This document shows positions 8,347 to 15,871 of a stretch of DNA of 21,061 nt, one piece after another. The notes under the pieces are model-generated. The model was given only the letters and a program-made list of their open reading frames with translations. It searched no databases and had not been told where the DNA came from. The stretch comes from Bacteroidales bacterium 45-6 (GTDB taxonomy: Bacteria > Bacteroidota > Bacteroidia > Bacteroidales > Dysgonomonadaceae). Positions within the stretch are counted from its first letter, which is position 1. Each line of letters opens with the position of its first letter. A program made the position numbers and the translations under genes. The stretch covers positions 1-21,061 of the forward strand of contig MKRS01000094.1 of NCBI GenBank assembly GCA_001897035.1, read 5' to 3'.

Positions 8347-8431
8347 GGAGAGATGGCAGAGTGGTCGATCGCGGCGGTCTTGAAAACCGTTGACTGTCAA
8401 AGGTCCGGGGGTTCGAATCCCTCTCTCTCCG
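8347..8431 (+). tRNA. tRNA-Ser (anticodon TGA)
   Basis: 85-base class II tRNA. The acceptor arms GGAGAGA (8347-8353) and TCTCTCC (8424-8430) pair fully, with discriminator G8431. The anticodon loop CTTGAAA puts TGA at 8381-8383, reading TCN serine codons. A long variable arm and the T loop GGTTCGAATCC follow. CCA is not encoded. The prophage integrase lies just downstream, so the 3' half of this gene is the likely attachment site. Confidence 0.97.
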
Positions 8432-8434
8432 CTG

Positions 8435-8569: not shown

Positions 8570-9769
8570 ATGTCTACAAGTCAACTTCACAAAACACTCC
8601 TGTTAAAAGATATAGGGAATATCGCCCTTGTAAATTATGAGCCGGCCGTCCTGTGCGAATTCAATTCAGGATGGCTGATAGAATATCGGATTATGAATCC
8701 CGAAACGGGAAGAATTGAACGTAAACGGCTCAAGTTTGAAAAGATCCGCAAACGGCAGCGGAGCGACAAGGAAGCCCGCAGAATGGCGAGAATATACTGC
8801 AATGCCATCAACGAAAAACTTGAATCGGGATGGAACCCTTATATCGAAGGGAAAAAGGCCAAATCATTTCACAAGATCACAGAGGCACTGAAGGCATTCA
8901 TCAAGGAAAAAGAACTCGATTTCAAGAACGGTGTTTTTCGACACGACTCGATGCGTACCTATCGCTCGCAAATTGACATGCTTGTGACCTGGATCAACAA
9001 TCTGAATCCAAACATGTATGTGGCTAATTTCGATAAGGAAATTGCGCAGCAATATCTTGACTATGTCTACACGAACAAAGAAGTGTCGGCGAGAACCTGG
9101 AATAACTACCTCAAGTTCTTGCGGACAGCATGGGCCTGGCTTATCGAAAAAAACTACTGCAGTGAAAACATATTTCAGAATATTAAACCAAAAGCAGAAA
9201 AGGAAAAGGAACGGGTAATTATCCCTGAAGTCTGGAGTAAGAAGATCATGCAGTACTTCAGGGAAAACATTCCGGAAATGGAACTGGTGTGCGGACTGGT
9301 GTACAATTCATTCATGCGCCCTGCAGAGATATGTCGAACGCAGATCAAGAACGTGAAGCTGGAATCAAATGCGATTTACCTGGCTGGAGATAAAACAAAG
9401 AATTCCCGTGCCCGTTGGTGCTTATTGCCACCACACTTGGTGGATCTTATGAACAAAATAAATTTAGAGAAATTCCCTACAGATCACTACTTATTATCCT
9501 CTTTTCTCCGCCCGGGCAAAACAAAACTTGATACACGGAAGCTCGACAAATATTGGGATAAAATGAGATCGGCCATCGACCTGCCCACAGAAATGAAACT
9601 CTATTCATACCGGGACACGGGGATAACCGACCTCAAAAAGCAAGGGTTTTCAAATTTGTTCATCTCGACCATCACAGGACATCTGAATTCCGAAGAAATC
9701 GAAACCTATACACATGCGCCAGACCCGAAGGCTTTGGGATGGGTGCTTGAAGAGTCACGAAAACTATGA
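8570..9769 (+). CDS. int: Tyrosine site-specific integrase (prophage)
   Basis: 399 residues. An N-terminal basic arm-binding region (KRLKFEKIRKRQRSD, about 40-85) is followed by a SAM-like core-binding domain (about 100-220) and a C-terminal catalytic domain. Visible catalytic residues are Arg250 in FMRPAEIC, probable Lys277 in DKTKN, Arg348 in YSYRDTG, His371 in TGHLNS and nucleophile Tyr380 in ETYTH. The usual box-II His (HxxR) is Tyr345 here, which is tolerated in Bacteroidetes integrases. The ATG follows a run of ten A. It catalyses integration and excision by recombination between attP and the bacterial att site, here presumably the tRNA-Ser 3' end 140 bases upstream. It points into the prophage and converges with the tail genes. 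Confidence 0.93.
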   Translation: MSTSQLHKTLLLKDIGNIALVNYEPAVLCEFNSGWLIEYRIMNPETGRIERKRLKFEKIRKRQRSDKEARRMARIYCNAINEKLESGWNPYIEGKKAKSFHKITEALKAFIKEKELDFKNGVFRHDSMRTYRSQIDMLVTWINNLNPNMYVANFDKEIAQQYLDYVYTNKEVSARTWNNYLKFLRTAWAWLIEKNYCSENIFQNIKPKAEKEKERVIIPEVWSKKIMQYFRENIPEMELVCGLVYNSFMRPAEICRTQIKNVKLESNAIYLAGDKTKNSRARWCLLPPHLVDLMNKINLEKFPTDHYLLSSFLRPGKTKLDTRKLDKYWDKMRSAIDLPTEMKLYSYRDTGITDLKKQGFSNLFISTITGHLNSEEIETYTHAPDPKALGWVLEESRKL

Positions 9770-13021: not shown

Positions 13022-14218
13022 TTACATAAAATCAACAGTATAAGTTTTATCGAATGTCTCATTATAGATGCCCAGTTCATCCAGCGACGCGCGATCCAGC
13101 TCTGGCGAAACATACTTCCCTGATCCCACCTCCGTCACCACCAGGGCCACGGATGTGGGGGCTATTTTCTTCTGACGGTAGGCCATCTTGTCGGCTTTTA
13201 CGGTACAGCGGAAATATGTTCCGTCCGGATAATAGAAATAAGCTTCATCCGAACAGACCAAATCCCGGACAAAGAGCAGGTCATCCTTCGACTTGTAGCC
13301 CGTCTCCACCTTGATCGTTTCCGTCATCGGCACCCGGTCGCGGCGGTTCTCGTAGAAATTGGAACCGGTCAATTCCTTCCAGATGGTTTCGTCCCCAAAC
13401 TCGGGTTCGTGGCTGGCCACGCCAATGACCTCCAAGACTTCGAAAGCCCCAAGGCTATTCCGGAAGCGGATCCTGTAGCGTTCTTCAGTCGTTTTATTTT
13501 CCCCGATCAGGAAGGTGAAGGCAAGCGCAGTACCTACCAGCACTTCAATTTTCAGGGCATTTTCTGAAAAATCACTTAAGAATTGGTCCTTGACTTTATA
13601 TATGTCTAGGAGGCATATAGTTCCTTCAATCTGAGTCACAGCCTCTACAGAATTTCCAGATCCGGATCGAAAGGAAATTACACCTAATGGATGCAAGAAA
13701 AGAAACGGGTACATTTCCGATTCCTTCAGCCTGACCACGTTCCTGTGTGTCCGGGTGGTGAAAAGGAAATTCCGTGTAGCCACATTGAGTCGGAAGGAAA
13801 AAATATCCTGGCTGTTTTTAGCCAACAAGGCAAGCGTCTGGTCGTTTACGCCTCCCGGAAATGCGGTTCCGGAAAAGATGTAATCATTATAAACAGGAGT
13901 ATCATTTATGAAGAAAATAAACACCGAATCCTTAATCGTGAAGGTGAACGGCACAGAATGCCCCGCGAAAGGAGTCACCATTCCAAGACCTTGTGGAAAC
14001 GAATCGGCAAGGTTCGTTTTGAACAGAAAGCCCGAAATATCCACCTTGCAGCGATATACTCCGTCTTTCAGGAAAGGATAATAAGATTGCGTGAACGTCT
14101 CCCCGTTGCAGGAGATGCTCACGTCGATTGCACCATATACAGCCGTTTGCAACTCGAAAACCACAGGGTTTCCGAGAAAGCAATATGGACCGGGAGTTTT
14201 CAGAACGGTGACTTCCAT
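13022..14218 (-). CDS. Phage tail protein of unknown role
   Basis: 398 residues from the ATG at 14218. This start (MEVTVLKTPGPYCFLGNP) is preferred to a possible one at 14287 because it is preceded by AAGAAG and overlaps the upstream gene by only 19 bases, fitting the coupled layout of this operon. The protein looks beta-rich throughout: repeated aromatic strands such as VVFELQTAVYGAIDVSI and VPFTFTIKDSVFIFFIND, with no signal peptide and few helices. I do not recognise a named domain. Its place between the lysis cassette and the fibre hydrolase suggests a tail or fibre-connector protein, but this is inference. GC content looks higher than in the two fibre genes downstream. Confidence 0.72.
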   Translation of the reverse strand: MEVTVLKTPGPYCFLGNPVVFELQTAVYGAIDVSISCNGETFTQSYYPFLKDGVYRCKVDISGFLFKTNLADSFPQGLGMVTPFAGHSVPFTFTIKDSVFIFFINDTPVYNDYIFSGTAFPGGVNDQTLALLAKNSQDIFSFRLNVATRNFLFTTRTHRNVVRLKESEMYPFLFLHPLGVISFRSGSGNSVEAVTQIEGTICLLDIYKVKDQFLSDFSENALKIEVLVGTALAFTFLIGENKTTEERYRIRFRNSLGAFEVLEVIGVASHEPEFGDETIWKELTGSNFYENRRDRVPMTETIKVETGYKSKDDLLFVRDLVCSDEAYFYYPDGTYFRCTVKADKMAYRQKKIAPTSVALVVTEVGSGKYVSPELDRASLDELGIYNETFDKTYTVDFM

Positions 14219-14706
14219 ATCTTCTTTTTGATCAAAATAAATGGAACTATAATTAGCAGGCCGATAACAAGCGATATATATATCCATTCACGGCCCTGCA
14301 CAGGCCGTGAATCTGTCTTATTATCCGTCTTCGTCTCGGATTTTGAGTCCGATTCCTTCATGCTTGATTCCCTGACAGAAGATGTACCTACGGAAACCGC
14401 AGATGATCGTCCTGTGCTAATAGCCAGCTTAGCAGATCCAGCTTTCCTCCACCGTTCTGATACGCTTCGTATTCTGCCCGAGTCTGAATAGACAGTTGTT
14501 CGCTCGTAGGTTGATTCCGTAGCGACTGCCGTTGAAGAGTCTCGATTTTCAAGAACTGTTCGGCCGCTATCTGCTGCATGTCTGACAGCAGCTTTAAAAA
14601 CCTTTTCCGTTCCGGAAGATACAGCAGTCGTACTGCTACTTGAGCTCCGACAACCGCACTGGACAGCGCAAAGAGCAATAAGGATAAGTAAAATTCCATA
14701 TTTCAT
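14200..14706 (-). CDS. Spanin-like lipoprotein with C-terminal membrane helix (candidate u-spanin)
   Basis: 168 residues. The N-terminus MKYGILLILIALCAVQ is hydrophobic and leads to Cys17-Gly-Cys19 followed by RSSSSSTT, like a loose lipoprotein signal (Cys19 has Gly at -1). A long polar Ser/Thr/Lys/Glu-rich linker (20-138) follows. Residues 141-159 (WIYISLVIGLLIIVPFILI) form a membrane helix followed by a basic tail. An outer-membrane lipid anchor plus an inner-membrane helix in one chain is the plan of unimolecular spanins such as T1 gp11, which fuse the two membranes at the end of lysis. The ATG overlaps the amidase stop as ATGA, and the 3' end overlaps the next tail gene by 19 bases. A second reading frame starts 7 bases later. 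The spanin role is inferred from topology and position. Confidence 0.68.
   Translation of the reverse strand: MKYGILLILIALCAVQCGCRSSSSSTTAVSSGTEKVFKAAVRHAADSGRTVLENRDSSTAVATESTYERTTVYSDSGRIRSVSERWRKAGSAKLAISTGRSSAVSVGTSSVRESSMKESDSKSETKTDNKTDSRPVQGREWIYISLVIGLLIIVPFILIKKKIWKSPF
14388..14699 (-). CDS. Overlapping +1-frame ORF: small membrane-anchored helical protein
   Basis: 103 codons in the +1 frame within the spanin-like gene, starting at the ATG 7 bases after its start. The product has a hydrophobic N-terminus (about 3-23; FYLSLLLFALSSAVVGAQVA), a basic turn (YLPERKRF), an amphipathic helical stretch rich in Gln, Glu and Leu (LLSDMQQIAAEQFLKIETLQ), and a tail with EYEAYQNGGGKLDLLSWLLA. 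This is the plan of an i-spanin (Rz-like) or a small pinholin or antiholin, and it reads like a real protein rather than random translation. Overlapping frames are well known for spanin genes (Rz1 within Rz). Alternatively it is an accidental open frame; the shared hydrophobic start favours chance in part, since a +1 shift of such codons can stay hydrophobic. Confidence 0.45.
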   Translation of the reverse strand: MEFYLSLLLFALSSAVVGAQVAVRLLYLPERKRFLKLLSDMQQIAAEQFLKIETLQRQSLRNQPTSEQLSIQTRAEYEAYQNGGGKLDLLSWLLAQDDHLRFP

Positions 14707-15317
14707 TTTTTTGAAGTTATGTAGTTGTTAGACAATTCAAAACCTTTGATTAATGCTTCGACCACCTTTGCATTGAATGCTGGGTCCGACAGCAGCTCCA
14801 CGTCATCCCGGTTGTCCTGGAACATGCACTCGATTAGGTTGGCCGAATACCCGCCCATCAGCACGGTGAAGTTGTCTTCGTAGTCTCGCTGCAGGTATTC
14901 CGGCGAGTACTGCCGGTGCTTCACCTCGGGGATCACTTCCTTGAATGCCTGGATAAAACAGTCTGCGAAAATGTCGCTGGTGGTGCGACCCTTGGATGTC
15001 CACACCGATATGCCGGATGCCTTCATCCACTGGCTTCCATCTCCTGAAGCATCGTTGTGCAGCGACAGCAAAAAAGGTATAAGATCCGGATGCTGTTTGG
15101 CCAAAAGCGTGCCGGCATTCTTCCTGGCGGAAAGGCCGATTTCTTTTTCCGTTGTGTTTGTCCATACAACGGTATAACCCAATGCCTCCAACCTTGGGGC
15201 AAGTTCACGAAGTCGCTCACGACTCCACTTATATTCGCGGTGTTTGCCGTCAGGCGAGCGTTTGCCCGGCACTTCTATTCCATGTGCCGGATCCAGGATA
15301 ATTAATAATTTTTTCAT
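14703..15317 (-). CDS. N-acetylmuramoyl-L-alanine amidase (Amidase_3 endolysin)
   Basis: 204 residues from the ATG at 15317, which overlaps the holin stop as ATGA; an upstream ATG at 15356 would add 13 unconserved residues. It is a single Amidase_3 domain, a zinc amidase that cuts the link between MurNAc and the stem peptide. Probable zinc ligands are His12 (LDPAHG), Glu28 (HREYKW) and His87 (LHNDAS), with catalytic Glu163 in NLIECMFQDN. There is no signal peptide and no separate cell-wall-binding domain, so release through the holin is expected. It lies between the holin and spanin-like genes, making a compact lysis cassette with 4-base overlaps on both sides. Confidence 0.92.
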   Translation of the reverse strand: MKKLLIILDPAHGIEVPGKRSPDGKHREYKWSRERLRELAPRLEALGYTVVWTNTTEKEIGLSARKNAGTLLAKQHPDLIPFLLSLHNDASGDGSQWMKASGISVWTSKGRTTSDIFADCFIQAFKEVIPEVKHRQYSPEYLQRDYEDNFTVLMGGYSANLIECMFQDNRDDVELLSDPAFNAKVVEALIKGFELSNNYITSKK

Positions 15318-15871
15318 TTGAATCGATCGGTTAGTAGTGAAATGAATTTTTTCCAAAAGCCTTGGATTACTTCAATCAGGGCTGTTTTCGGTTGCCCGTC
15401 GATCACCGATTTGTTTTCGAGAATCGAAGTAAGATGTTCAACCAGGAACATGGTGATCGTGGACAGGAAGACTATTTTAAAAAAAGCATAGGCCAGCACG
15501 TCAAATAAGTTGGTGCGAGCCATATATTCTTTTTCGAAAGCGTGGATTATATAAAATATGATTGCCCAAAGAGCGAGCTTTAGGACGCAGCGGGAAAACT
15601 TGAAGCTCTCGAAAGGCTTGCCTTGCTTTTTTGAGGCTTTGATACCCGTATAAATCTCCAAGGCCACGGCCACGAGCATCGCTAACCCAAGTTCGGGACC
15701 AAATCCAAACAGGTAACTAACTCCCCCGGAAATGGAAGACAAGAGAAGCGTAAGGAATTGGAGGTTATATTTCCAACTTGGAAACATCGATAGGATCAAT
15801 TCCTTGATTGACCCGTAATCGTAAGATTCTAATAATTTGATGATAGGTCTCATAGTCGTTTTTTGTTTCAA
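15314..15871 (-). CDS. Phage holin
   Basis: 185 residues with about four hydrophobic segments (37-56, 58-75, 95-111, 124-146) and a charged, partly amphipathic C-terminus (WKKFISLLTDRFK). The segment ELGLAMLVAVALEIYTGIKASKKQGKPFESFKF, split over residues 60-92, resembles the phage_holin_4 (toxin secretion/phage lysis holin) family. It would form the inner-membrane lesion that lets the amidase reach peptidoglycan. It is first in the lysis operon; its stop overlaps the amidase start. A strong terminator for the upstream operon lies 33-72 bases before its start, and no clear promoter is seen after it. Confidence 0.85.
   Translation of the reverse strand: MKQKTTMRPIIKLLESYDYGSIKELILSMFPSWKYNLQFLTLLLSSISGGVSYLFGFGPELGLAMLVAVALEIYTGIKASKKQGKPFESFKFSRCVLKLALWAIIFYIIHAFEKEYMARTNLFDVLAYAFFKIVFLSTITMFLVEHLTSILENKSVIDGQPKTALIEVIQGFWKKFISLLTDRFK

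Follow-up and report, generated by a model that had tools for sequence, protein, structure and literature searches.

Two predicted lysis proteins appear to be encoded by one stretch of DNA in a Bacteroidales prophage family

The window analysed here, a stretch of 21,061 nt from Bacteroidales bacterium 45-6 (assembly GCA_001897035.1, contig MKRS01000094.1, positions 1 to 21,061 of the forward strand), carries on its minus strand a region that probably belongs to a prophage. The lysis cassette of this region runs from a holin gene (15314..15853, minus strand; Phage_holin_4_1, PF05105, E = 4.2e-10), which overlaps the start of the following gene, through an endolysin gene for an N-acetylmuramoyl-L-alanine amidase (14703..15317, minus strand; Amidase_3, PF01520, E = 7.6e-18), to a gene for a protein of 168 amino acids (14200..14706, minus strand), whose reading frame we call frame 0. 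Nested inside the latter, and in the same frame as the endolysin, lies a gene for a protein of 103 amino acids (14388..14699, minus strand), here called the +1 gene, which is recognized by its own ATG, its relatives and the selection tests described below. A tRNA-Ser gene (8347-8432) directly precedes a phage integrase gene (8570-9769), and this junction is probably the attachment site and the left end of the prophage.

Both genes begin in a start hub at 14697..14706 (minus strand), where the +1 ATG (14699-14697) follows the frame-0 ATG (14706-14704) at a distance of 7 nt. The endolysin stop codon TGA (14705-14703) overlaps the frame-0 ATG, and the +1 ATG stands one codon past this stop in the endolysin's own frame (TGA AAT ATG). 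Readthrough of the TGA (14697-14705) would join the amidase to the +1 membrane protein; the loci L013 and L014 carry other endolysins, and there the endolysin and the +1 gene are in different frames. We set such readthrough aside as the way in which the +1 gene is started, the conserved ATG being the simpler start. An antisense frame of 266 amino acids (13691-14491) was likewise dropped as a gene, since the matching stretch of L002, a Bacteroidales metagenome-assembled genome (MAG) of UBA1309, contains stops, and it is probably due to chance.

Judged by sequence, alignments and hydropathy, frame 0 is predicted to encode a unimolecular spanin (u-spanin), with a signal peptide, a lipobox Cys, a periplasmic part of about 120 residues, a C-terminal membrane helix (approximately residues 142-158; 14233..14283, minus strand) and a basic tail. 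The u-spanin plan, and the criterion that its periplasmic part is free of Cys, follow the accessible portion of Kongari et al. 2018 (PMC6139136). Across the 32 proteins of the pair set, a Cys occupies the lipobox column in all 32 (a strict consensus fit is found in only 10), the C-terminal helix reaches a hydropathy of 1.93-3.45 over 17 residues in all 32 and is followed by Lys/Arg, and the two are spaced 120-124 residues apart; the periplasmic part is Cys-free in 30, with one Cys each in L011 and L047. The window protein has Cys residues at positions 13, 17 and 19, and the alignments disagree on which of them belongs in the lipobox column (C17 in one, C19 in two others). We prefer C19 (QCGC, followed by RSS; codon at 14650..14652, minus strand) as the lipidated residue, with C17 as the alternative, because the residues after C19 then match those of the relatives; neither fits the strict lipobox, and QCGC lies outside the consensus. 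Beyond the overlap, frame 0 has a conserved DSRPVQG motif (14293..14313, minus strand). A G+C-rich inverted repeat of 10 pairs (14286-14312) in the 3' part of the gene spans the codons of this motif. Searches of Pfam, PHROGs, NCBIfam and PDB sequences with frame 0 returned scattered weak matches only. The lipobox-column Cys, the C-terminal helix, the Cys-free periplasmic part and the position in a lysis cassette are all found, and frame 0 is probably a u-spanin, as the original prediction had it.

The +1 protein has an N-terminal membrane helix (14631..14681, minus strand; hydropathy 2.15; when frame 0 is shuffled synonymously, 2% of the sequences attain this value) and a conserved C-terminal segment (14391..14471, minus strand) with the motif YExY...GG....WL...DHLRFP, where the synonymous constraint on frame 0 peaks. 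It matches no known family in Pfam, PHROGs or PDB sequences, where matches were weak and scattered (best E = 3e-4, from one member); the Rz-like spanin family phrog_89 was matched weakly by 3 of 27 +1 members (best E = 0.0024).

A query with the +1 protein recovers proteins at 89, 82 and 65% identity, and in four other genomes it finds homologous open frames at 65, 40 (partial), 33 and 31% identity; in all of these four genomes a frame-0 homologue begins a few bases before the +1 frame and directly after an endolysin gene. The two frames of L002 are listed as separate entries, P0003 and P0008, one frame per protein source, and at this one matched locus the pair is thus easily missed. Of 101 genomes of the family, 12 (the window's own among them) contain a match to the frame-0 profile. 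The profile also matches at 11 loci in named species genomes, some of them shared with the family set (Bacteroidales UBA1309, Dysgonomonas, Proteiniphilum, Fermentimonas, and MAGs labelled Prevotella, Tannerellaceae and Dysgonomonadaceae), as well as in 23 viral contigs. Among 393 genomes of the order, 16 match frame 0 at E <= 0.001, and only the window's own match passed the later cut (best candidates, at most 9 per genome). These loci, pooled and freed of identical copies, comprise 50 frame-0 sequences, of which the 36 scoring above 50 bits, window included, were counted; the 14 excluded sequences score 36 bits or less and all lack the DSRxxQ motif. The 36 include near-copies (L055/L056; L014/L064/L067), so that the loci are partly non-independent. 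Two further loci, L092 and L093, were found later through the +1 protein; both frames are present there, outside the count of 36.

Viral contigs searched with a single sequence of either frame gave no match, nor did phage records searched by tblastn with both window frames, P0016 and the +1 protein of L066. For the +1 family, the 393 genomes of the order gave three weak partial matches besides the window, all inside long frames, and hence no stand-alone +1 copy among these genomes (best candidates, at most 12 per genome). Relatives of the endolysin occur in 59 phage records; ten of these regions were searched with the profiles of both families, and neither profile matches in any of the ten. 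A reading of the open frames of L098-L104 shows different spanin-like frames after the endolysin in L098, L100 and L104. In L098 (2403-2810, 2530-3084) and L100 (2402-2797, 2655-3077), a related amidase is followed by an i-spanin-like frame that overlaps a second frame; the i-spanin-like frame is basic before its helix, the other frame has a C-terminal helix, and the profiles of the present pair do not match them.

The +1 frame is open over 77-119 codons in 33 of the 36 frame-0 genes (L020 is truncated where its contig ends), which bears out the claim that the 103 codons starting at 14699 are a second gene. Loci with a broken +1 frame and an intact frame 0, named beforehand as evidence against such a gene, do exist (L016, L017 and L070), but only at 3 of the 36; they indicate that the +1 gene is not essential everywhere. 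A tree of 39 frame-0 proteins places L016 among +1-bearing loci at a support of 95/57, which is not firm, and this suggests that L016 lost the gene; the long branches of L017 and L070 leave these two without placement. Among the 32 loci with intact starts, the +1 ATG follows the frame-0 ATG by 7 nt in 21, by 10 nt in 10 and by 13 nt in one (L047), so that the nearly shared start, which had been singled out as unlike that of Rz1 in Rz, holds throughout. The +1 protein ends in FP in 24 of these, in YP in 3 and otherwise in 5. The longest open stretch in the +2 frame among the 36 genes is 67 codons. The +1 family profile is matched by 31 of the 36; in L044 and L047 the frame is open but the profile does not match. 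Since 25 of the matched loci were in the profile itself, the cross-clade test given below is the fairer one.

When frame 0 of the window was reshuffled synonymously, the +1 frame stayed open in 5 of 1000 sequences under family codon usage and in 36 of 1000 under within-gene permutation, a result that for the window alone is suggestive only. Reshuffling of 32 loci left the frame open in 0-28 and 0-78 per 1000, respectively, and because 33 of the 36 genes keep it open, the +1 gene is decisively more than chance would provide. We then scored codon agreement in frame 0 at aligned identical residues, in pairs below 40% protein identity, with region-wise permutation as the expectation. Agreement in the overlap is 0.519 (7789 sites) against 0.358 when permuted (z = 20.7), and in the tail of the gene 0.365 (5884 sites) against 0.353 (z = 1.7); this is the check for synonymous constraint that the original prediction had proposed, and the excess in the overlap is strong. 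The window compared with the others behaves similarly (overlap 0.515 vs 0.341; tail 0.352 vs 0.322), and the signal is weak in L044 and L047 (overlap z = 2.9 and 2.4; L047 tail z = 3.1). Over the first two thirds of the overlap the excess is slight or absent (0.40 vs 0.36, 0.39 vs 0.39, 0.45 vs 0.36, 0.43 vs 0.41), and over the C-terminal segment of the +1 protein agreement rises to 0.56, 0.62 and 0.67 against an expected 0.34, 0.38 and 0.28. The alignment column of the +1 stop is shared by 29 of 32 loci, and the synonymous excess ends at this stop, agreement falling to 0.39 against 0.41 right after it; the codons of the DSRPVQG segment are at chance (0.36 vs 0.37) despite strong conservation of the protein.

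Closely related sequences point in the same direction. We compared ten pairs of close or fairly close relatives and pooled five that have no member in common, which gave 0.011 changes per site where both proteins are altered (NN, 8/730), 0.072 where only frame 0 is altered (NS, 20/277), 0.038 where only the +1 protein is altered (SN, 12.5/331) and 0.31 where neither is (SS, 3.5/11.3, thus only 11 sites). In the tail, available for four of the five pooled pairs, the rates are 0.033 for nonsynonymous and 0.163 for synonymous changes. The pooled pairs therefore show purifying selection in both frames. A pair outside the pool, L014-L059, runs counter to this trend, with no deficit of NN changes (NN 0.070, NS 0.063), and the pair of the window and L002 is under weaker constraint (0.218, 0.341 and 0.381). 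When +1 profiles were built in one clade and scored in the other (ten of one clade against 17 of the other, and the reverse for ten; L044, L047, L050, L055 and L056 were left out), the real sequences beat their shuffles: with 93-100 shuffles each, for 26 of 27 genes no shuffle attains the score of the real sequence, and for L036 1 of 100 does. The +1 helix has a mean hydropathy of 2.67, against 0.93 in shuffles, of which 0-7% reach the real value; the shuffles are nevertheless still hydrophobic, and this suggests a route by which a membrane protein might originate opposite a signal peptide. An overlapping gene under dual selection is expected to have a conserved start of its own and to show purifying selection on each of the two frames, as is the case here, and on this comparative evidence both frames are almost certainly real genes.

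The plan of an i-spanin, which the original prediction had offered among others for the +1 protein, is not borne out in that form. No Lys or Arg precedes the helix in 27 of 32 +1 proteins (the exceptions are L034, L011, L059, L068 and L069), and the net charge of the 20 residues past the helix is positive in 25, zero in 4 and negative in 3. In the i-spanins lambda Rz, T7 18.5 and P2 LysB, the helix is preceded by 1-2 Lys/Arg, and the 20 residues that follow it contain 4. Charge alone thus suggests that the +1 protein would lie with its N-terminus out and its C-terminus in, unlike an Rz i-spanin, although known i-spanins are also basic past the helix. In the accessible parts of the respective papers, an N-out/C-in topology is described for the Mu releasin gp25 (PMC9239132) and for mycobacteriophage LysF1b (PMC13056207).

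The neighbourhood of the pair varies. Among representative pair loci, the upstream enzyme is Amidase_3 in the window, Amidase_2 in L014, Peptidase_M15_3 in L013, GH108 in L034 and L047, and DUF5675 in L057 and L012/L039, that is, five endolysin Pfam families among the representatives scanned, with a GH19-like enzyme in L049 just below the cut-off; endolysin types beyond these representatives were sorted by eye. The +1 gene is hence not tied to one endolysin. The endolysins beside the pair show no membrane segment by hydropathy, and, read by eye, no endolysin lies directly upstream in L055, L056, L062, L063, L068 and L069. The proteins in the holin position include Holin_4_1, two-helix and single-helix types, several of them without a match to a holin family. 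In L016 (560-1075), L019 and L066, the protein in this position has a single helix and a long tail and is not Holin_4_1; L016 has this protein and no +1 gene, and L019 and L066 have both. The retention of the +1 gene across such settings makes the spanin a more likely partner for it than one particular holin or endolysin. However, the overlap forces the two genes to be transferred together, so that modularity alone is no proof of a shared function.

We propose that the locus is a holin-endolysin-spanin cassette with a genuine overlapping pair, consisting of a u-spanin and an inner-membrane accessory protein, and put the probability of this reading at roughly 0.7. The frame-0 lipoprotein would span the envelope, with its N-terminus in the outer membrane and its C-terminal helix in the inner membrane, and would disrupt the outer membrane after the endolysin has cleared the wall. 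The +1 frame would be initiated independently 7-13 nt downstream to yield a small inner-membrane protein, its N-terminus probably outside and its helical tail in the cytoplasm, and the common translation site could keep the two products in proportion. Such a protein would be a lysis accessory, with the spanin as its likeliest partner or target of regulation; taken jointly over the roles of spanin partner, i-spanin-like protein and holin- or endolysin-related protein, the sequence data make an inner-membrane lysis accessory a probable assignment. It is a good deal more tentative, and somewhat less likely than otherwise, that the pair represents a further spanin architecture, a u-spanin gene with a dedicated inner-membrane partner (an anti-spanin that keeps the spanin inactive until lysis, for example) which originated by overprinting and travels as an indivisible mobile unit among unrelated holins and endolysins.

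The two genes could be read in other ways. That frame 0 is the sole gene, and the open +1 frame a by-product of codon usage and sequence, would agree with the three relatives that lack the frame and with an openness that in the window alone is moderately unlikely (5 or 36 per 1000), but the synonymous constraint is confined to the overlap, the ATG and stop are conserved, similarity between clades exceeds that of shuffles and the helix is far more hydrophobic than theirs (2.67 vs 0.93), which makes this account highly improbable. Frame 0 might instead be another envelope lipoprotein, such as a superinfection or structural accessory, that stands after the endolysin by chance. Its lack of clear similarity to known spanins, the relatives that are not beside an endolysin and the listing of Bacteroides phage B124-14 as spanin-less in the available part of the 2018 survey (PMC6139136) would all allow this; nevertheless, the lipoprotein signal with a C-terminal helix, the periplasmic part without Cys in 30 of 32 proteins and the place in the lysis cassette argue for a spanin, and the phages of Bacteroidetes in the dataset of a 2025 survey use only unimolecular spanins, according to the accessible portion of that paper (PMC12596118). 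We consider the other-lipoprotein reading improbable.

The role of the +1 protein leaves more room. It could be an Rz-like i-spanin with its N-terminus in and a periplasmic tail, frame 0 being an o-spanin partner that gained an inner-membrane anchor: the +1 protein has a single N-terminal helix and a helical-looking tail, layouts with two overlapping frames are common among spanins (PMC6139136, in the part available), 3 of 27 members match phrog_89 weakly, and the i-spanins of lambda, T7 and P2 are likewise basic after the helix (4 Lys/Arg in 20 residues). Against this stand the 27 of 32 proteins without a basic residue before the helix, where lambda, T7 and P2 have one or two, the absence of profile similarity to lambda Rz and a frame 0 that already appears to be anchored in each membrane, and we think such an arrangement unlikely. 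Hardly better placed is the idea that the +1 protein works with the holin or the endolysin, be it as an antiholin, a small component of the holin or a releasin-like factor tethered to the membrane, and shares its DNA with the spanin for economy only. The gene does sit in a lysis cassette, and its size and predicted topology fit Mu gp25 (99 amino acids, N-out/C-in), as its plan fits LysF1b, going by the accessible descriptions of both; yet the protein has no similarity to Mu gp25, it is kept beside five endolysin families among the representatives and beside varied proteins in the holin position, the neighbouring endolysins have no membrane segment that hydropathy reveals, and six pair loci, read by eye, have no endolysin directly upstream. 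Thus, the u-spanin with an inner-membrane accessory remains the reading that we prefer.

Spanin genes are a textbook case of overlapping genes, as pairs of i-spanin and o-spanin. The present pair is an unusually clean nesting of two membrane-protein genes, with measurable dual selection and a second ATG 7-13 nt after the first, and if the +1 product is made and active in lysis, a one-chain spanin does not always come by itself. If our reading is true, the +1 protein would be a new component of the final lysis step in phages of Bacteroidota.

In the open-access PMC literature, with few subscription papers covered and the sources available in part, we came across no description of a u-spanin gene that contains a second, nested gene and nearly shares its start with it. 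The u-spanin prototype, T1 gp11, resembles frame 0 in its lipoprotein signal, periplasmic stretch, C-terminal helix and lack of periplasmic Cys (30 of 32 here), and, as in T1, frame 0 of the window follows the endolysin. The two have no useful sequence similarity, what there is being confined to the lipobox, and both other frames of gp11 are closed by stops, whereas frame 0 carries a nested gene. Mu gp25 (DUF2730, 99 amino acids), as far as its description was accessible, is like the +1 protein in having about 100 residues, one N-terminal helix, a predicted N-out/C-in topology and a place near the endolysin. However, hhalign of the +1 alignment (A5) against gp25 gives a probability of 0.4% and places the +1 protein outside DUF2730, which is also absent from the 25 listed of 43 weakly matched Pfam families; gp25 is not nested in a spanin gene, and its tail is described as predominantly anionic, while the net charge of the +1 tail lies between -7 and +14, with positive values in 21 of 32. 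Mycobacteriophage LysF1b, likened here by its partly accessible description, shares a single N-terminal helix, the predicted N-out/C-in topology and a lysis cassette, and differs in its mycobacterial host, its separate gene and its reported holin function (PMC13056207). Called open frames in Porphyromonas gingivalis phages are often frameshifted relative to the candidate spanins, according to the available part of one study (PMC10367356), and these frameshifts may hint at similar nested cases. About 70% of the embedded pairs in the 2018 survey (PMC6139136, in the part available) have an o-spanin start that falls at 0.4-0.5 of the length of the i-spanin. Compared with such Rz/Rz1-type pairs, the present starts are only 7-13 nt apart and the lipoprotein is the longer, outer gene with a C-terminal helix of its own, so that frame 0 is not an o-spanin in the sense of a lipoprotein without its own membrane helix. 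Nonetheless, lambda Rz/Rz1 and T7 18.5/18.7 are, like the present pair, two envelope proteins of a lysis cassette that are encoded in overlapping frames.
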